From contig JAITFE010000019.1 of the NCBI GenBank assembly GCA_031281585.1, positions 1 to 33,941 on the forward strand: DNA of 33,941 bases, given 5' to 3'. The stretch comes from Bifidobacteriaceae bacterium (GTDB lineage Bacteria; Actinomycetota; Actinomycetes; Actinomycetales; WQXJ01). Shown here piece by piece: positions 1-32,540 of the stretch. The stretch's first letter is position 1. Each line of letters opens with the position of its first letter. The translations under genes and the position numbers were made by a program. Below the pieces are notes generated by a model, which did no database searches, was not told the DNA's origin, and was given only the letters and a program-made list of their open reading frames with translations.

Positions 1-68
1 TCGACCGCCAAGACCCGCCCTGAAGAGGCGCCCAGGTCGATGGCGACCACGCGGGCCGGCCGGGTCAT
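1..68 (-). CDS. rhaB: Rhamnulokinase, N-terminal fragment (cut by window edge)
   Basis: Only the first 22 codons are in the window, read leftwards from an ATG at 68-66. The visible peptide contains VVAIDLGASSGRVLAV, which matches the N-terminal phosphate-1 loop of FGGY-family sugar kinases and most closely rhamnulokinase (E. coli RhaB begins with a VAVDLGASSGRVML segment). The enzyme would phosphorylate L-rhamnulose to L-rhamnulose-1-phosphate in the cytoplasm. The start codon shares one base with the stop of rhaI (TGATG), so the two are translationally coupled. The identity rests on one motif plus the operon context; another FGGY kinase is possible but unlikely next to rhaI and rhaM. Confidence 0.8.
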   Translation of the reverse strand, partial: MTRPARVVAIDLGASSGRVLAV

Positions 69-1234
69 CAGGCGCCCCAGCTGGCCTGGGTGCCGCCAAC
101 GCGTTCGGCGGCCACGCGCGCGGCGTACCCCGAGGCCTTGAACGCCGCGATCGGATCCGGTGCCAGGCCCTGGTCTAGCCGCAGGTCGGCGAGCAGTGGT
201 CGCACGTCGGTGTTGTAGGCGTCCATGAGGACGGCGTTGGCACCCAGCACGTCGCCGGCGCGTTGGGCGTCCACGAGGGCGCCCCTGTCGACCAACAGCG
301 CCTTGGCGGTCGCCTCCTGAACGTTCATCACCGAGCGGATCTGGCCCTCAATCTTCGGCTCGATGTTGTGGCACTGGTCCAGCATGAAGTTGACGCCGCT
401 GGCGGGCCCGAGGGCGTCCGCCCGCACAATCTGGTCCATGATGCGGAACAACTGGAACGGATCGGCTGCCCCCACCATCAGGTCGTCGTCGGCGTAGAAG
501 CGGGAGTTGAAGTCGAACGCCCCCAGCCTCCCCGCCCGGAGCAACTGCATCACGATGAACTCGACGTTGGTGCCCGGCGCGTGGTGGCCGGTGTCCAGCA
601 CCACTTTCGCCTGCGGGCCCAACGCCAGGACGTGGGTCAGCGCCGTCCCCCAGTCGGGGATGTCCGTGGCGTAGAAGGCCGGCTCGAAGAACTTGTACTC
701 CAGCAGCATCAGCTGGTCCGGGTCGAGGGCCTGGTAGATGGCCTGGAGCGATTCGGCCAGACGTTCCTGCCGGTCCGCCAGGTCGTCCTGGCCCGGATAG
801 TTCAGCCCGTCCGGCAGCCAGATCTTGAGCGCTTTGGAGCCGGTGGCGCGGCAAATGTCCAGGCAATCCAGGTGGTGGCGGACCGCCTGGGCCCGCACCG
901 CCGGGTCGGCGTTGGTCAGCGAGCCCAACCGGTAGGCGTCGTCCTGGAACAGGTTGGAGTTGATGACGCCAATGGCGACGCCCAAGTCCGCCGCATGCCT
1001 CGCCAACGCGTCGTAGGAGTTGACCTTGTCCCACGGGATGTGGAGCGAGACCCTCGGGGTGATGCCGGTGAAAAGGTTGACCTGGGCCGCGTCGGCGATC
1101 TTCTCGAACGGGTCGCGGGGCGTTCCGGGGGTGGTGAACACCTTGAATCTGGTGCCGGAGTTCCCGAACGCCCAGGATGGCAATTCGACGGTCTGGTCCG
1201 CCAGGGCCTGCTTGACTGATGCTGGTGTGTTCAT
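68..1234 (-). CDS. rhaI: L-rhamnose isomerase (Pseudomonas stutzeri RhaI type)
   Basis: A 388-residue TIM-barrel sugar isomerase converting L-rhamnose to L-rhamnulose with a divalent metal pair. Recognisable segments are LLEYKFFEPAFYATD (metal-binding Glu), KVVLDTGHHAPGTN (Asp and His ligands) and the ADDDL acidic cluster. The reading frame extends ten codons further upstream, but the ATG at 1234 has a GAGGAGG ribosome site four bases before it and avoids overlap with rhaM, so I use it. The gene lies 26 bases after rhaM and overlaps rhaB by one base, an obvious operon. Where the P. stutzeri enzyme, as I recall it, has a His in an FHFN segment, this protein has FDFN; this may be typical of actinobacterial members. 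The family assignment is secure and the exact sugar specificity is inferred from context. Confidence 0.92.
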   Translation of the reverse strand: MNTPASVKQALADQTVELPSWAFGNSGTRFKVFTTPGTPRDPFEKIADAAQVNLFTGITPRVSLHIPWDKVNSYDALARHAADLGVAIGVINSNLFQDDAYRLGSLTNADPAVRAQAVRHHLDCLDICRATGSKALKIWLPDGLNYPGQDDLADRQERLAESLQAIYQALDPDQLMLLEYKFFEPAFYATDIPDWGTALTHVLALGPQAKVVLDTGHHAPGTNVEFIVMQLLRAGRLGAFDFNSRFYADDDLMVGAADPFQLFRIMDQIVRADALGPASGVNFMLDQCHNIEPKIEGQIRSVMNVQEATAKALLVDRGALVDAQRAGDVLGANAVLMDAYNTDVRPLLADLRLDQGLAPDPIAAFKASGYAARVAAERVGGTQASWGA

Positions 1235-1260
1235 GACGCCTCCTCGCGTCTGGGCCCGGC

Positions 1261-1623
1261 TCATTCCGGGGTTGGGTCAGTGGGTGGCGGCGGTGCGGCT
1301 TCGAGTTGTGCCTCCAGGTGGAACACTTCCTCCAGGAGCGCCATGCCCTCGTCGGGGTTGCCCCCGGCCTGGAAGAACTCGGCCATGGCGGCCTGCCAGC
1401 GGGCGTTGACTTCGGTCGCCGCCATGCGGGCCTGCGCTGCCTGGTAGCCGTCCGCGAGGTCGGCCGTGCCGACCAGCAATCCGTCGGCGCGCAGGTAAAG
1501 CCTGTAGTCGCGCCAGCCGGCGTCCCTCAGGGCGGCCAGCATTTCCGGCCAAACGGCCCGGTGCGCGGCCCGATACTCGTCAAGGCGGGCGGGATCGATC
1601 TGGGAGGTGAAGCAGACGCGCAT
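1261..1623 (-). CDS. rhaM: L-rhamnose mutarotase
   Basis: A 120-residue small ferredoxin-fold protein of the RhaM/YiiL family that interconverts the alpha and beta anomers of L-rhamnose and so feeds the isomerase. The N-terminal RVCFTSQIDPARLDEYRAAH followed by VWPEM is the family signature; the Tyr and His of this stretch are the expected catalytic residues. Typical members are about 104-110 residues; here the extra length is a Pro-rich C-terminal tail (APPPPTDPTPE). I start at the ATG at 1623, preceded by AAGGAAGG, rather than ten codons upstream. It is the first gene of the rhamnose operon, with a LacI-type operator about 95 bases upstream. Confidence 0.92.
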   Translation of the reverse strand: MRVCFTSQIDPARLDEYRAAHRAVWPEMLAALRDAGWRDYRLYLRADGLLVGTADLADGYQAAQARMAATEVNARWQAAMAEFFQAGGNPDEGMALLEEVFHLEAQLEAAPPPPTDPTPE

Positions 1624-2330: not shown

Positions 2331-2445
2331 CGCCCCCATCGTGGCGGCAGATGACACGGCAGCACCAAACCCGCCGGTCGATGAGTGGCGGGACGTGGCG
2401 GGACGACTCTCTCCGAGGGCGTCGGGCCGCCTCGGGGGAAGCCCG

Positions 2446-3033
2446 GCACAGGATCCGCCAGTCGGCGAGTCGGCGGCACATGATCCGCCACTCGGCGGAA
2501 GCCCGGCACGGAATCCGCCGGTCGACGAGCCGGCGGCACATGATCCGCCACTGGGCGGAGGTCTTGGCGCATAATCCGCCACTCGGCGGAAGCCCGGCAC
2601 AAAATCTGCCACTGGGCGGACCTGGTGTAACGAAATCCGCCGTTCGGCGTCGATTGGCGGATTGTGTGCCGCTGAACCCGTCGAACGGCGTTTCCTGTGC
2701 CGTCCGGGGCACTCAGCCGCGTCGAGTGGCGGCTAATGTCCGGTTTCCCCCTCGGGGCGCGCCTCTGACCAGCGCAGATGCAAACCGGCCCGGACAAAAT
2801 CCGCCTCTCGCCGGAGGGGGTGTAACAGAATCCGCCTCTCACCGGAGAAGGCGCAACACAATCCGCCACTGGGCGGCGGAGGGGCATAGAATCCGCCGTT
2901 CGATGAAGCGGTGGCACAGCCTCCGCTGCTCGCCGGCGGCCGCGCCACAAAACCCGCCACTCGGCATCGACCGGCAGCTTCGGCTGGCGGATTGTGTGCC
3001 GCTGGGCACGTGGTGTTTCCTGTGCTGTCCGGG
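2446..3033. repeat. Repeat locus A: inverted blocks of ~30-31-bp units
   Basis: Forward-reading units (R) with consensus near GCACAnAATCCGCC-ACTCGGCGG start at about 2446, 2476, 2506, 2536, 2567, 2597 and 2628. Inverted units (F, containing TGGCGGATTGTGTGCCGCTG and relatives) start at about 2649, 2680 and 2721. A core follows, then R units at about 2792, 2823, 2854, 2884, 2914 and 2945, and two F units up to 3033. A stray R unit lies near 2362. Spacing is 30-31 bp almost throughout. Many R units carry a small hairpin (TCCGCC-ACTC-GGCGGA, for example 2484-2499). The last F pair (2985-3033) repeats the pair at 2655-2708. The frames open across it are by-products of the period. It ends about 20 bases before the lacI -10. 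Confidence 0.85.
2735..2798. repeat. Core of repeat locus A
   Basis: Between the F block and the second R block lies a non-periodic segment containing a small GC hairpin (CCCC-CTC-GGGG area), TGACCAG at 2766-2772 and GCAAACC at 2780-2786, seven bases apart. The same two words with the same 7-base gap occur at 30936-30956 in locus B, again between an F block and an R block. Confidence 0.75.
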
Positions 3034-5186: not shown

Positions 5187-5242
5187 GCAACTCAAACGCT
5201 CTTCGTGATCCACCTGCGGATCACGATGCTGGTTTGAGTTGC
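5187..5242. repeat. 56-nt bipartite hairpin between menB and menC
   Basis: An outer 11-bp stem (GCAACTCAAAC, 5187-5197, with GTTTGAGTTGC, 5232-5242) encloses a 6x6 internal loop and a perfect inner 8-bp stem (CGTGATCC, 5204-5211, with GGATCACG, 5218-5225) with a 6-base loop. It is formed by the first copy of the 93-bp repeat. There is no T tract, so it does not look like an intrinsic terminator. Confidence 0.75.
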
Positions 5243-5411
5243 ATTTGGCTCTCCGGCGGGCGGTTTCGGGGGCACAAGTGCGACCTTGGGCCTCATCGTG
5301 ATCCGCTGGTGGATCACGATGCTGGTGTGAGTTGCAGTTGGCCCTCCGGCGGGCTGTTTCGGGGGCCTGAGTGCGACCGTCGGCGTCTTCGTGATCCGCT
5401 GGTGGATCAGG
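5204..5411. repeat. 93-bp tandem repeat, about 2.2 copies
   Basis: CGTGATCC starts at 5204, 5297 and 5390, an exact 93-bp period. Each unit opens with the palindrome CGTGATCC-6 nt-GGATCACG and continues with GAGTTGCAnTTGGC and a CTCCGGCGGGC segment. The loop differs between copies 1 and 2 while the stem is preserved. The third copy diverges after 5411, on the way to the menC start. Because 93 is divisible by three, a frame stays open on the minus strand, but nothing about its composition looks like a protein gene. The gap 5130-5507 is otherwise empty. Confidence 0.85.
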
Positions 5412-5494
5412 AAGAGCCCCAAGGTTGCACTACCGCCGCTGAGAGGGTCGCCGTCGCCGTCCCGCAGAGCTCGCGAGCCTTCGGCCGGCAGCCC

Positions 5495-10676: not shown

Positions 10677-10734
10677 GGAAACGGGGACGGTACCTTTTTC
10701 CGGTTCGCCGGAAAAAGGTACCGTCCCCATTTCC
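10677..10734. terminator. 58-nt near-perfect dyad between convergent genes
   Basis: A perfect 21-bp stem (10683-10703 with 10708-10728) closed by a TTCG loop is extended by a mismatch and five more pairs (GGAAA/TTTCC). It lies between the htrA-type stop at 10660 and the menF stop at 10745, so it can serve both directions. The T run is inside the stem rather than after it, so it is not a classical intrinsic terminator; the GGGGACGGTACC word resembles dispersed REP-like sequences. A related GGGGACGGT word occurs near 32518. Confidence 0.7.
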
Positions 10735-27334: not shown

Positions 27335-28897
27335 ATGACCATGCAGAATTTCCCCTGGCTCACGGTGTTGATCGCCGCGCCCAGCGTTGGCGCGCTGATC
27401 GTCTGGCTGGGCGGCGGCGCGATCCGGCGCTACGCCCGCCACATCGCCTTCGTCTGGTCTTTGCTGATCGCGGCGGCCGCGTTTGTGATGGCCACCGAGT
27501 TCGAGAGTTGGAACGGCGACATCCAGTTCGCGCAGCGGGTCGAGTGGATCCCCTCGTTCGGCGTCTCCTACGCGGTGGGCGTCAACGGTGTTGGCCTGCT
27601 GCTGATCCTGCTGTCCGCGCTGCTGGTGCCGATTGTGCTGCTGGCGGCCTGGCGGGAGCAGTCCTCCCCGGCCAAACAGGCTCATTACGCGGCGCTGGTG
27701 CTCTTCCTGGAGACGTTCATGATCGCGGTGTTCGCCGCCCGGGACGTGTTCTTCTTCTACCTCCTGTTCGAGGCGATGCTGATCCCGGTCTACTTCCTGA
27801 TCGGCTCGTTCGGCGGCCCGAACGCCAAGAAGGCGGCTTTGAAGTTCCTGCTCTATTCGCTGGCGGGCGGCCTGATCATGCTGGCGGGCGTGATCGCGGT
27901 GTGGACCCAGGGCCCGGGCGGCCCGGAGGGCTTCATGATCGACTCGCTGGTCGGCGCGGATTGGGGCTCTGCCCAGGCCGAGCGCTTGATCTTCCTGTCC
28001 TTCTTCGTGGCTTTTGCGGTCAAGGCGCCCATGTTCCCGGTGCACACCTGGCTGCCGGACGCCGCCCAGGCCGCCAAGCCCGGAACCTCCGTTCTGCTGG
28101 TGGGGGTCTTGGACAAGGTCGGCACGTTTGGGATGGTGGCGCTCTGCCTGCCCATGTTCCCGGAGGCGTCCCGGTGGGCCGCCCCCGTGATTGTGGTCCT
28201 GGCCGTGGTCTCGATCTTCTGGGGCGCGTTCCTGGCCTTGGGCCAGAAGGACATCCTGCGGATGATCGCGTACACCTCCGTCTCCCACTTCGGCTTCATT
28301 GTGCTGGGCATCTTCGCGTTCACGGAGACGGCCGAATTCGGGTCGGCCTTCTACATGTTCAACCACGGCCTTTCGACCGGGGCCTTGTTCCTGCTGGCGG
28401 GCTTCTTGATCGCCCGGCGCGGCACGCAGGACATGACGTTGATGGGGCCGGGTTTGCAGCGCACCACGCCGCTGTTGGGCGGCACTTTCCTGGTGGTGGG
28501 CCTGTCCGCGCTGGCGTTGCCCGGCCTGTCGCCCTTCGTTTCCGAGTTCATGGTGCTGATCGGCACCTATGAGCGCCTCCCCGTGGCGGCGGTGATCTCG
28601 GCTTTGGGCGTCATCATGGCGGCCCTGTACATCTTGATCGCCTATCAGAAGATCTTCACCGGCCCGGTCCGCGAGGACCTGGCCGGGACCCGCGACCTGG
28701 GCGCGCGCGAACTGTGGGTGGTCGGGCCGCTGATCTTCCTGATGCTGCTGCTCGGCTTCTGCCCCCGGCCCGCCACGGACTTGTTGGAGTGGCCGGCGGC
28801 CCAAGTGGTCCAACAGGTCCACGAGGTCCAAGTCGCCGACCAGGCGGCTGACGAAGATGACTTAGTGGGCGTCGAAGAGGAAGGAGACCAGCCATGA
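27335..28897 (+). CDS. nuoM: NADH-quinone oxidoreductase subunit M (antiporter-like)
   Basis: A 520-residue proton-pumping membrane subunit. It has FFFYLLFEAMLIPVYFLIG (Glu), VKAPMFPVHTWLPDAA (Lys) and ILRMIAYTSVSHFGF. Two ATGs, 27335 and 27341, follow a GAGGAGTAAAGAGGA region; either could be used. The C terminus is an acidic tail (ADEDDLVGVEEEGDQ). It has an ATGA overlap with nuoN. Confidence 0.97.
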   Translation: MTMQNFPWLTVLIAAPSVGALIVWLGGGAIRRYARHIAFVWSLLIAAAAFVMATEFESWNGDIQFAQRVEWIPSFGVSYAVGVNGVGLLLILLSALLVPIVLLAAWREQSSPAKQAHYAALVLFLETFMIAVFAARDVFFFYLLFEAMLIPVYFLIGSFGGPNAKKAALKFLLYSLAGGLIMLAGVIAVWTQGPGGPEGFMIDSLVGADWGSAQAERLIFLSFFVAFAVKAPMFPVHTWLPDAAQAAKPGTSVLLVGVLDKVGTFGMVALCLPMFPEASRWAAPVIVVLAVVSIFWGAFLALGQKDILRMIAYTSVSHFGFIVLGIFAFTETAEFGSAFYMFNHGLSTGALFLLAGFLIARRGTQDMTLMGPGLQRTTPLLGGTFLVVGLSALALPGLSPFVSEFMVLIGTYERLPVAAVISALGVIMAALYILIAYQKIFTGPVREDLAGTRDLGARELWVVGPLIFLMLLLGFCPRPATDLLEWPAAQVVQQVHEVQVADQAADEDDLVGVEEEGDQP

Positions 28898-30516
28898 GCC
28901 CCACCTCCCCGACTCCGGAGATTCTCATCGACTGGACAACTCTCAGCCCGGTGCTGATCGTCTTGGGCGCGGCGGTCCTGTCAACTTTGATTGAGGCGGT
29001 CGGCGCCCGCAAGGCCCGTTCGGGCGTGGCGGAGCAGCCCGCCTACCTGCGCGTGGTCCAGGCCGGCGTGGCCCTGCTGGCGGTGGCCGCCGCGGGCCTG
29101 ATGGCGTTGCGCCTGGCGCTCGAATCCGAATCCTCCATTGGCGAGAACGGCGACGGCGCCGTCCTGGTCGACCCGATGACGCTCTACCTCCAGTTGGCGA
29201 TCGCCACCTGCGCGCTGATCGGCTTGCTGGTGATCGCCGACCGCACCGTCCAGGGCGAGGACGCGTTCGCGCCGCAGGCGGCGGCGGTCCCCGGCTCGGA
29301 ATATGAGGCGAAGGCGCGCGGACGCGGCATGACCCAAACCGACGTCTTCCCGCTGGTGCTGTTCGCCACCGGCGGCATGATGCTGTTCCCGGCGGCGGCG
29401 GACTTGATCACCATGTTCGTGGCTCTCGAAGTGCTGTCGCTGCCGCTCTATTTGCTGGCGGGCTTGGCACGGCATCGGCGGCTGTTGTCGCAGGAGGCGT
29501 CCCTGAAGTACTTCCTGCTGGGAGCCTTCGGCTCGGCTTTCTTCCTGTTCGGCGCGGCCTGGGTGTACGGGGCGACGGGGGCGCTGAAGCTGACCGAGAT
29601 CGGGGCGGCCATGGCCGTACCGACCGGGCTGGACCCGTTGCTGGTGGTCGGCCTGGTGCTGATCCTGGTCGGCCTGCTGTTCAAGGTCGGGGCGGTGCCG
29701 TTCCACTCTTGGACGCCGGACGTGTACCAGGGCGCGCCCACGCCGATCACCGGCTTCATGGCGGCCTGCACCAAGATCGCGGCGTTCGGGGCGCTACTGC
29801 GGGTGCTGTACGCGGTCGCGCCCGCGCTGACCTGGGACTTGAAACCGGTCTTGTGGACGGTGGCGATCCTGACCATGGTGGTGGGCACCGTGGTCGGCCT
29901 GGTCCAAAAGGACGTCAAGCGGATGTTGGCGTATTCGGCGATCGCCCATGCGGGCTTCATCCTGGTGGGCGTGGTGGCCTGGACCTCCGAGGGCCTGTCC
30001 GGCTCGCTGTTCTACCTGTTCACCTACGGGGTGGCCACGGTGGGCGGCTTCGGCGTGATCGCCTTGGTGCGGGAGGTGGACCCGGAGGGCCACATGCGCG
30101 GCGAGGCGACCGGCCTGGACCAATGGCGGGGCTTGGGCAAACGCTCGCCGGTGCTGGCCGGGGCTTTCGCGCTCTTCCTGCTGTCCTTCGCGGGCATCCC
30201 GCTGACCTCGGGGTTCGTGGGCAAGTTCGCGGTCTTCGCGGCCGCGTTCGGGGCGGGCGCCTCCGCCTTGGCGATCATCGGCCTGGCCTGCTCCGCGGCG
30301 GCGGCGTTCTTCTACGCCCGCGTGATCGTGGCGATGTTCTTCGAGTCGCCGCCGGATGACGGCGCCTTGGCGGTCAGCGGCGTGGGGATCGGGGTGCGGA
30401 CCCTGGGACTCACCCAACTAGCGGTGGCCGTGTCGCTGGCGTTCACGCTGGCGCTGGGCGTGGTGCCGGGCTGGTTCTTGAACTTCACCCGAGGCCTGGC
30501 CCAACTGCTCTCCTAA
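28894..30516 (+). CDS. nuoN: NADH-quinone oxidoreductase subunit N (antiporter-like)
   Basis: A 540-residue proton-pumping membrane subunit, the last of the operon. It shows MFVALEVLSLPLYLLAGLAR (Glu), LLFKVGAVPFHSWTPDVYQG (Lys) and VKRMLAYSAIAHAGFILVGV. It ends with TAA at 30514-30516. No clean intrinsic terminator follows; the first structure is a small CGGCG-TT-CGCCG hairpin at 30551-30562 inside the repeat locus, with a T run ten or so bases later. Confidence 0.98.
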   Translation: MSPTSPTPEILIDWTTLSPVLIVLGAAVLSTLIEAVGARKARSGVAEQPAYLRVVQAGVALLAVAAAGLMALRLALESESSIGENGDGAVLVDPMTLYLQLAIATCALIGLLVIADRTVQGEDAFAPQAAAVPGSEYEAKARGRGMTQTDVFPLVLFATGGMMLFPAAADLITMFVALEVLSLPLYLLAGLARHRRLLSQEASLKYFLLGAFGSAFFLFGAAWVYGATGALKLTEIGAAMAVPTGLDPLLVVGLVLILVGLLFKVGAVPFHSWTPDVYQGAPTPITGFMAACTKIAAFGALLRVLYAVAPALTWDLKPVLWTVAILTMVVGTVVGLVQKDVKRMLAYSAIAHAGFILVGVVAWTSEGLSGSLFYLFTYGVATVGGFGVIALVREVDPEGHMRGEATGLDQWRGLGKRSPVLAGAFALFLLSFAGIPLTSGFVGKFAVFAAAFGAGASALAIIGLACSAAAAFFYARVIVAMFFESPPDDGALAVSGVGIGVRTLGLTQLAVAVSLAFTLALGVVPGWFLNFTRGLAQLLS

Positions 30517-30538
30517 GGCGCCTGATCGGGACTCACAA

Positions 30539-31099
30539 CCAGACGAACCCCGGCGTTCGCCGCGCAGTGTGGTTTTTCCATCCGGCCGGCCCCGCACAAT
30601 GCGGGTTCGCATCCGGCCGGCCCCGCCGAACGCCTGCCGAACGCCCGAATGTAGGATTCTGTCTGGCGTGCGGCGCACGCGGCCAGATGGAATCCCACAC
30701 TCGGCGGGTTCTACCAACTGAATTCCTACACTCGACGGTTCTACCAGACAAAGTCCCACACTCGGCGGGTTCGACCAGATGAATTCTTACACTCGACGGC
30801 GAATGTAGGATTTTATCTGGCTTGCGGCCGCGAATGTAGGATTCTGTCTGGCTTGCGGTCGCGAATGTAGAATTCCATCTGGTGCGGGCCCGCGAATGTA
30901 TGATTCTGTCTTCCCGCCGACACGGGCCGCGTTCCTGACCAGGTAGGACGCAAACCAGCGCAAGATGAAATCCTACGCTCGGCGCTGGCGGCCAGATAAG
31001 ATCCCACACTCGACGGGTTCTACCAGATATAGTCCTACACTCGATGGCGAATGTAGGATTCTATCTTGCCCAACTATTCGAATGTAGGATTCACTCTGG
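30539..31099. repeat. Repeat locus B: inverted blocks of 31-bp units
   Basis: F units (CGAATGTAGGATTCTGTCTGG and variants) start at 30646, 30800, 30831, 30862, 30893, 31048 and 31079, with two divergent ones before 30625. R units (reverse complement, CCAGATGnAATCCCACACTCG type) start at 30683, 30714, 30744, 30775, 30961, 30992 and 31023, with a divergent one at 30539. Spacing within blocks is 31 bp, once 30. The R-to-F junctions (30775-30820, 31023-31068) form long imperfect hairpins with 4-base loops (ACGG, ATGG). The order R4-F4-core-R3-F2 parallels locus A, and both share AATCCnnCACTCGGCGG. The block lies between nuoN and the polyprenyl synthase and contains no credible gene. Confidence 0.88.
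30914..30960. repeat. Core of repeat locus B
   Basis: A non-periodic segment between the F and R blocks with a CCCG...CGGG hairpin, TGACCAG (30936-30942) and GCAAACC (30950-30956), seven bases apart as in locus A (2766-2786). Confidence 0.75.
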
Positions 31100-31437
31100 C
31101 CAAACGGCCTAGGGTAGGGCCCTGTCTTTGAGAGGGATTTCAGTATCCCCTAGCCACGAGCGCCGACGCCGTCGACTGCGAGCTGACACTCTACGATCGG
31201 GACTCGGACCCAGACGGAATCCACCTTTCGCGGTCGAGTGTCGCTCTGCCATGCCCCTCTTTGGTCTTGTCTGCCTATCCCGCGTCGGCCAACTCTGGAT
31301 CCCGAGCTTCGAGCGTCCCAAGGTCCGCCTCGGCTTCCGCCGACCACTTGACGGCGGTTGAGGGCTCCTCACCCCGCCGCTCGGGCGGCTTGGGGGCCGC
31401 TCTCATCAGGGCATGAGGCCCCAGCCGGCCGCTGACA
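31100..31437. other. Gene-free stretch before the polyprenyl synthase
   Basis: I find no gene here. It has a small hairpin (GGGAT 31134-31138 with ATCCC 31145-31149) and one isolated degenerate R unit (CCAGACGGAATCC from 31210). The remainder shows no structure I recognise. Confidence 0.5.
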
Positions 31438-31451: not shown

Positions 31452-32474
31452 ATGGCATCCTCCCGGCCCGCTGTCGCCTTGGGCGATCCGTCGTTGGACG
31501 CAGCAATCGGCGCTGGGATGGACCGGGTGGAGGCGAAGCTGGCCTTGACGGTCGACTCGCCGGACCAGTTGGTGGCGGACGCCTCTGCGCATCTGCTCCG
31601 GTCTGGCGGGAAGCGACTGCGGCCGCTGCTTGTCCTTCTGGCTTCGAGCCTGGGTCGCGGCATTGACGACCAGGTGGTGGACGCGGCCGTGGTGGTGGAG
31701 CTCACCCACCTCGCGTCGCTGTACCACGACGACGTGATGGACGCCGCCCCTCTGCGGCGCGGCGCGCCCTCCGCGCATGAAGCCTTCGGACCCTCGGTCG
31801 CCATCCTGACAGGCGACCTCCTGTTCGCCAAGGCGTCGCAGATCGTGGCGGGCCTGGGACCGGAAATGGTCCGGCTGCAGGCGGAGACGTTCGAGCGGCT
31901 GTGCCTGGGCCAAATCCATGAGACGGTGGGCCCGCGCGGGGAGGACGACCCGGTGGCGTTCCACCTCCAGGTGTTGGCGGACAAGACGGGCGCCCTGATC
32001 GCCACTTCCGCCCGCTTCGGGGCGTTGCTGGGCGGCTGCCCGCCCGCAATCGTGGAGGCGCTGGTCGGCTACGGGGAGGCGGTCGGGGTGGCCTTCCAGT
32101 TGGCGGACGACATCATTGACTTGACCTCCCCGGCCGAGGTGACGGGCAAGACCCCGGGCACCGACTTGCGCGAGGGCGTGCCGACCATGCCGCAGTTGCT
32201 GGTCCAGGCGGCGGCCCGCCGCGACTTGGCGGACGGCGTGGCGGGCAGCCCGGACGTGGCTTTGGCCAACGCGATCGAGGGCGACCTGTCCGGCGATGCC
32301 GCGCTGGCGGCGGTGGTGGACCAACTGCGGGCCAACCCGGCCCTTGAGGAATCCCGCCGCATAGCCACAACGTGGGCGAACCGCGCGGTCGCGGAACTGG
32401 CTCCGCTCCCGAAGGGCCCGGTCCGCCGCGCCCTGACGGACATAGCGGACCTCTTCGTAAGCCGCCTCTCCTAA
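31452..32474 (+). CDS. Polyprenyl diphosphate synthase (trans-type)
   Basis: A 340-residue all-helical prenyltransferase that elongates allylic diphosphates with isopentenyl diphosphate. The two Asp-rich motifs are DDVMD (93-97) and DDIID (219-223), and GGKRLRPLL (52-60) binds diphosphate. The residues four and five before the first motif are Ser and Ala rather than bulky aromatics, consistent with a long-chain product. With men genes and a MenJ-like reductase nearby, it most likely makes the menaquinone side chain, like the M. tuberculosis grcC1 gene beside menJ; the chain length cannot be read from sequence. It is convergent with the Fic gene. Confidence 0.94.
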   Translation: MASSRPAVALGDPSLDAAIGAGMDRVEAKLALTVDSPDQLVADASAHLLRSGGKRLRPLLVLLASSLGRGIDDQVVDAAVVVELTHLASLYHDDVMDAAPLRRGAPSAHEAFGPSVAILTGDLLFAKASQIVAGLGPEMVRLQAETFERLCLGQIHETVGPRGEDDPVAFHLQVLADKTGALIATSARFGALLGGCPPAIVEALVGYGEAVGVAFQLADDIIDLTSPAEVTGKTPGTDLREGVPTMPQLLVQAAARRDLADGVAGSPDVALANAIEGDLSGDAALAAVVDQLRANPALEESRRIATTWANRAVAELAPLPKGPVRRALTDIADLFVSRLS

Positions 32475-32506
32475 CCCGGGAACCCGGGAACCCGGGAACC
32501 CGGGGA
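32475..32506. repeat. 8-bp tandem repeat CCCGGGAA
   Basis: CCCGGGAA occurs three times in a row directly after the polyprenyl synthase stop, followed by CCCGGGG. Every unit is centred on the palindrome CCCGGG, so many alternative hairpins are possible. Copy number probably varies by slippage. Confidence 0.85.
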
Positions 32507-32540
32507 CACGGGAAGGCGGGGACGGTCCTTCCGCCCACAC

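Follow-up and report, generated by a model that had tools for sequence, protein, structure and literature searches.

Locus B, the non-coding block that separates nuoN from the polyprenyl diphosphate synthase gene, is probably a protein-binding DNA array. Its repeated units would be binding sites presented on one face of the helix around a central box, within elements that are, or once were, mobile. The window, i.e. the whole stretch of 33,941 nucleotides that was analysed, has a G+C content of 68% and belongs to a draft genome of 4.0 Mb in 169 contigs (G000). The features of the block, its flanking genes and a related array in the same window are given below in window positions; F and R denote units on the plus and the minus strand, and PWM scores are those of the position-weight matrix used for unit calling.

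2363-2998, no strand assigned: locus A, type-A member of the family in the same window, with the core CCGCCAC and its own central box at 2767-2784
28894-30516: nuoN, the gene 5' of the locus B block
30517-31425, no strand assigned: non-coding block, inserted between nuoN and the polyprenyl diphosphate synthase gene; limits approximate
30542-30559, plus strand: degenerate outer F unit, PWM score only 7.1 (12.7 with a window-inclusive matrix)
30646-30663, minus strand: outer left R unit, GACAGAATCCTACATTCG, PWM score 35.4
30686-30795, plus strand: left F block, 18-mers at 30686, 30717, 30747 and 30778 (steps of 31, 30 and 31 bp)
30800-30910, minus strand: left R block, 18-mers at 30800, 30831, 30862 and 30893 (steps of 31 bp)
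30937-30954, plus strand: central box (C), GACCAGGTAGGACGCAAA, conserved; in every type its distance to the first F unit is constant
30964-31043, plus strand: right F block, 18-mers at 30964, 30995 and 31026
31048-31096, minus strand: right R block, 18-mers at 31048 and 31079
31137-31155, minus strand: degenerate second central box, GGCTAGGGGATACTGAAAT then CCCTCTCAAAGACAGGG, with three mismatches to the box and the correct sequence after it
31213-31230, plus strand: degenerate outer F unit, PWM score 15.3
31452-32474: polyprenyl diphosphate synthase gene, 3' of the locus B block

Seven F and seven R units occupy positions 30646-31096 on a single 31-bp lattice. The position-weight matrix was trained without window sequences and recovered 14 strong units in the block, while 50 shuffles gave none above the cut. 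A consensus scan of the window yielded 15 matches, every one inside the locus B block (expected: 0), and period-31 arrays were called there independently by Tandem Repeats Finder. The observation of an earlier note on this DNA, at least seven F units and as many R units spaced by 31 bp, was confirmed. The sole exception to the 31-bp step is one of 30 bp (30717 to 30747), and the lattice continues unbroken across the central box from the left R block to the right F block. Where F and R blocks face each other, at 30783/30800 and 31031/31048, they leave loops of 4 bases, and the units vary among themselves by substitution, both as previously described. The range originally assigned to the locus, 30539-31099, encloses the array but not the larger insertion, which fills most of 30517-31425; the degenerate outer units and the degenerate second box make the block longer than the array at 30646-31096. 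Directly 3' of the prenyl synthase gene, the octamer AACCCGGG is repeated about five times and followed by GGGGACGGTCCTT (32473-32523).

Locus B is a member of a family with dispersed copies. A search of its own genome returned 34 matching places, and a loose core pattern occurred 77 times there, compared to a single occurrence of the reversed control. The genome carries at least two array types. Type B, to which locus B belongs, comprises 17 loci with about 150 units, of which nearly all keep to the 31-bp lattice of their locus; the unit consensus is CCAGAYnnAAWCCTACAYTCG, with a length of 18-21 bp. Among 152 scored type-B units, one C is present in 152 and one T in 151, and AGA is conserved at 93-99%. 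Type A consists of locus A (about 2360-3000) and about ten other loci, which share the box and the layout of type B and have the unit core CCGCCAC in place of CCTACAT.

The family loci are intergenic and lie on many contigs. Locus A is flanked by the genes for L-rhamnose isomerase (68-1264, minus strand) and a LacI-type regulator; rhamnose isomerase, nuoN, a PemK-like toxin, a GntR regulator, a GHMP kinase, solute-binding proteins and vsr are among the mutually unrelated neighbours of the arrays. Among the loci inspected, neither a theme in the neighbouring genes nor a fixed array orientation relative to them was found. Near-identical vsr genes stand beside type-B array pieces on two contigs (L021:1164-2944 and L048:1775-2149), the first of which additionally has a DNA cytosine methyltransferase-like gene. 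Some loci are mosaic (L023:1890-2429, L034:1913-2220, L025:28-181 and L032): they feature an array with a pair of boxes, a tandem duplication of 218 bp that has a step of 41 bp (L034), and units intermediate between types A and B or mixing them. Repeated spacers at L021 and L031 are the result of local duplication. An origin of new units by duplication, as suggested in the earlier note, is visible in some loci (L034, L031), but most spacers show no trace of it now. The genomes are draft metagenome bins, in which the arrays are frequently located at contig ends. Tandem repeats of 64 bp (2.5 copies, 2165-2327) and 93 bp (2.3 copies, 5199-5429) in the window are outside the array family.

The central-box pattern was present in four of 396 genomes of the order, all four in the genus of the window (11 occurrences in G000, four in G009, three in G001 and one in G003), and it was absent from six of nine congeners. 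G001, G009 and G003, to which L085, L075 and L079 belong according to their identical contig places, contain arrays of the same design around the box with a species-specific unit sequence: GAGATnRAATCGCAGYCTCG in G001, GATRRGATTTCTATCTCG / GATAGAATCGCTATCTCG in G009 and GACAGAATCGACTGATCG in G003. Many copies in G001 follow one plan, F-R-R-box-F-F-R, of about 260 bp. The array elements are intergenic and discrete, measure about 250-900 bp and are inserted at sites that differ from species to species. Between lineages the unit block changes (CTACAT, CGCCAC, GCAGTC, GCTATC or TTCTAT, GACTGA), while the box, the GAYnRAATC of the left half and the terminal TCG stay largely the same. Two candidate loci were discarded: a unit-pattern match in G037 (L055) is an unrelated 120-bp tandem repeat, and locus L062 of G001 is a different dispersed hairpin repeat. 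The latter (L062:963-1340) consists of CCCAATTGCGACTTTGTGACCGATCTGCCCCG and its complement just 3' of a gene end, is off-lattice and has more than 50 further matches in G001. In viral contigs, 99 stretches matched the box pattern; paired units were missing from all 80 box matches that were checked, and none of the stretches contained two adjacent units. Phage and plasmid records held no similar DNA.

At the orthologous site, the gap between nuoN and the synthase gene measures approximately 20-60 bp in close relatives, including G001, G003 and G009, and about 130 bp in two more distant ones; no relative examined had a block there. Because this gap is short in the relatives, the locus B block is, by comparison of genomes, an insertion; in sister species the family is found at other places. 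Neither locus B nor an alignment of nine G001 copies revealed terminal inverted repeats or target-site duplications, and the element ends are fuzzy. The elements share with MITEs that they are multi-copy and non-coding and have an empty site in relatives, the last observed at locus B only.

Spacing was analysed for 345 units of five types, with the G of GAY as anchor for pair distances. Same-strand steps measured 30-31 bp (136) or 40-42 bp (38) in 174 of 184 cases; six of the remaining ten were at 58-62 bp, corresponding to a missing unit, and four at 80-87 bp. Not one of the 184 steps fell at 32-39 or 43-57 bp. Convergent anchors were 39, 50 or 60-62 bp apart in 57 of 58 cases, with 39 bp in types A and B, 50 bp in G009 and 61 bp in G001 and G003. 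Divergent anchors across the box were separated by 53-55 bp in 40 of 45 cases, and the value of each of the five types, 53-54 bp, is within this range. Step lengths hence differ by about 10-11 bp, one helical turn, and the distances of the types by about one or two turns. Taken alone, this between-type argument is suggestive, as the copies share ancestry and the spacing changes amount to roughly three independent ones with a chance fit of about 0.29 each (1-bp tolerance); the phasing argument is stronger where it draws on how strictly the spacing is held inside each type.

Spacer identity was 28-37% within and between loci, little different from the roughly 28% expected from base composition. 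Motif identity was equal within and between loci at almost every position, reaching nearly 1.0 at the key C and T as opposed to about 0.3 in the spacer. As the spacers are at background identity and the motifs are equally similar within and between loci, the pattern is the signature of independently constrained sites. The family hence combines the attributes of a protein-binding array, namely independently conserved sites, random spacers and helical phasing; whole-turn spacing with random spacers is rarely so clean in non-coding bacterial DNA. The earlier suggestion that spacing matters gained support, since the spacer sequence is random yet the step length is held, and the steps in congeneric genomes differ by about one helical turn.

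In the proposed mechanism, each 18-21-bp unit would serve as one site for a sequence-specific protein, and the placement of sites at whole helical turns (three or four) would align the bound copies on one helix face. The two divergent innermost sites are separated by a fixed distance around the asymmetric box (GACCAGSGNNNACGNNAA), and the outer sites point back inward. A nucleoprotein assembly centred on or nucleated at the box is the likely working form, because the sites are on one face and symmetric about an asymmetric box. The unit block changes in concert across all units of a type, suggesting a binder with lineage-specific specificity; a change of the block with retention of the box, GAYnRAATC and TCG is as expected if the site co-evolves with its protein. 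This protein would most likely be a recombinase or transposase, or an accessory factor of one, and the elements would be non-autonomous and served by it in trans. A recombinase or transposase is our first guess because the arrays are dispersed and the orthologous site is empty; a nucleoid or silencing protein is its main rival. A binding protein or mobilising gene was not found, and the genes flanking the arrays are mutually unrelated.

More tentatively, and at somewhat less than even odds, the arrays may be the sites of a genus-specific DNA-binding machine that is assembled at numerous chromosomal loci on symmetric helix-phased arrays with a fixed box at the centre, and whose recognition block was switched several times, in all sites of an element together, recording protein-site co-evolution. 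If true, such a machine would be new, and so would its use, whether in movement, in chromosome folding or in silencing. The sites, which number several hundred over the four genomes, represent a statistical footprint of a putative protein complex, and the concerted switch of the block, both among species and between types A and B in one genome, provides a natural experiment on protein-site change.

The same binding arrays might be kept for the host, with a nucleoid protein using them for chromosome organisation, silencing or long-range regulation and with copies added by insertion. Intact sites in most copies after dispersal and the spread of loci over many contigs are consistent with such a use. 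However, the lack of the box pattern in six of nine congeners, the empty orthologous site in all relatives examined and the absence of a theme in neighbouring genes and orientation render host use rather unlikely.

An identity with REP, BIME or REPIN-type elements spread by a RAYT (Y1 transposase) appears highly improbable. The arrays resemble BIMEs in being intergenic, multi-copy, mosaic, regularly spaced and present in both orientations (PMC2817692), and Y1_Tnp genes exist in the genus of the window. The distribution of these genes argues against a link: the array-bearing genome G003 (90% complete) has no Y1_Tnp (PF01797) match, G002, G004 and G005 possess Y1_Tnp and lack a central-box match, and array units are absent from the flanks of all five Y1_Tnp loci that were inspected (in G000, G001 and G009). 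One Y1_Tnp gene of G000 has inverted GGGGACGGTACC-like flanks of its own. Furthermore, the units are mostly non-palindromic, as seen in the consensus units of types A and B, with a near-palindromic unit in G009, and the complementary changes at pairing positions that characterise REPs were not detected. By the tests run, the locus B family is not a RAYT-type REP. An apparent type-A unit near a Y1_Tnp gene (L381) was dismissed as a chance match inside a glycogen-branching-type reading frame. The RAYT-like Y1_Tnp gene with the inverted GGGGACGGTACC-like motifs is located at L381:1817-2613 (contig C137 of G000), and a paired copy of the motif is present in the window at 10683-10728; gene and motifs probably constitute a separate RAYT/REP system.

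It is scarcely credible that the arrays are functionless DNA that arose by neutral duplication, in tandem and inverted form, and then decayed. Such an origin would account for the local duplications (the 218-bp repeat of L034, the repeated spacers in L021 and L031), the degenerate outer units and the lack of the locus B block at this site in relatives. Decay would affect unit and spacer alike, but some positions of the unit never vary among about 150 copies, next to random spacers, and the same architecture with different units recurs in four species. The earlier note had regarded missing compensatory pairing together with missing conservation in relatives as pointing to such decay. Indeed, compensatory pairing was not observed, and relatives lack the block at the orthologous site; yet neutral decay does not follow, because other members of the genus have conserved both the family and its architecture at other places.

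The left block of locus B (plus strand) folds as a long hairpin at -109 kcal/mol, far better than shuffled sequences (z = -7.6), and facing blocks are present in most loci. Such a fold is expected from any array of similar inverted units. Facing type-B units were 71.1% identical compared to 71.8% for non-facing ones, facing and non-facing spacers 31% and 29%, and wobble-type mismatches were distributed 53 to 51 between the strands, i.e. without G·U asymmetry; four further unit types likewise revealed no excess complementarity of facing units. Rfam gave no family match at the gathering score. A structured RNA, in which transcripts of facing blocks form long hairpins, as the earlier note had envisaged, and thereby regulate, terminate or protect neighbouring messages, is the least probable reading and was rejected, as a test of all facing R and F pairs gave no compensatory changes, the facing spacers are unpaired, and in other species the loops are enlarged from 4 bases to 15 or 26 with the helical registration kept. 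A strong predicted RNA hairpin can, as a caution, be a by-product of inverted DNA sites.

The preferred reading, a protein-binding array in mobile or formerly mobile elements, was compared with known systems. A CRISPR array is contradicted by the two orientations, the 10-bp spacers and the degenerate repeats, as opposed to direct repeats of about 21-48 bp with spacers of similar length. The ends of the transposons Mu and Tn7 contain several transposase sites of about 20 bp per side, on which a nucleoprotein complex is assembled. The arrays likewise have several sites of about 20 bp per side and would be bound in a nucleoprotein complex; they differ in that no transposase gene, termini or target duplication were found and in that the half-arrays surround a box rather than cargo. 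The attP site of bacteriophage lambda has a central core and two flanking arms with protein sites, whereas the arrays number many per genome and have no linked integrase. Pneumococcal BOX elements are modular, with a variable number of the inner module. To our knowledge, helical phasing is not known for them. The trait in common with the arrays is that of modular intergenic repeats, and a relation in sequence to the BOX elements (PMC3049150) is not known.

The nearest MITE with an inner array of short units is BrickBuilt of Porphyromonas gingivalis, which is present in about 19 copies, has inverted repeats at its ends and contains 23-nt repeats that adjoin one another with no spacer between them (PMC4596501). 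Both are short, species-limited intergenic elements with tandem short units (PMC4596501), but the arrays described here have random spacers of 10 or 20 bp, two orientations and a central box. Nearest in layout are BIMEs (PMC2817692). With BIMEs and REPINs mobilised by RAYT transposases (PMC2817692; PMC3116915) the arrays share dispersal, intergenic location, mosaic structure, both orientations, regular spacing and a lineage-specific unit. They are distinguished by the missing RAYT association, a conserved centre that is not a REP, the lack of palindromic REPs and of pairing selection, and the helical phasing of long same-strand blocks. The arrays represent a new variant among the interspersed bacterial repeats, with a putative DNA-binding partner.
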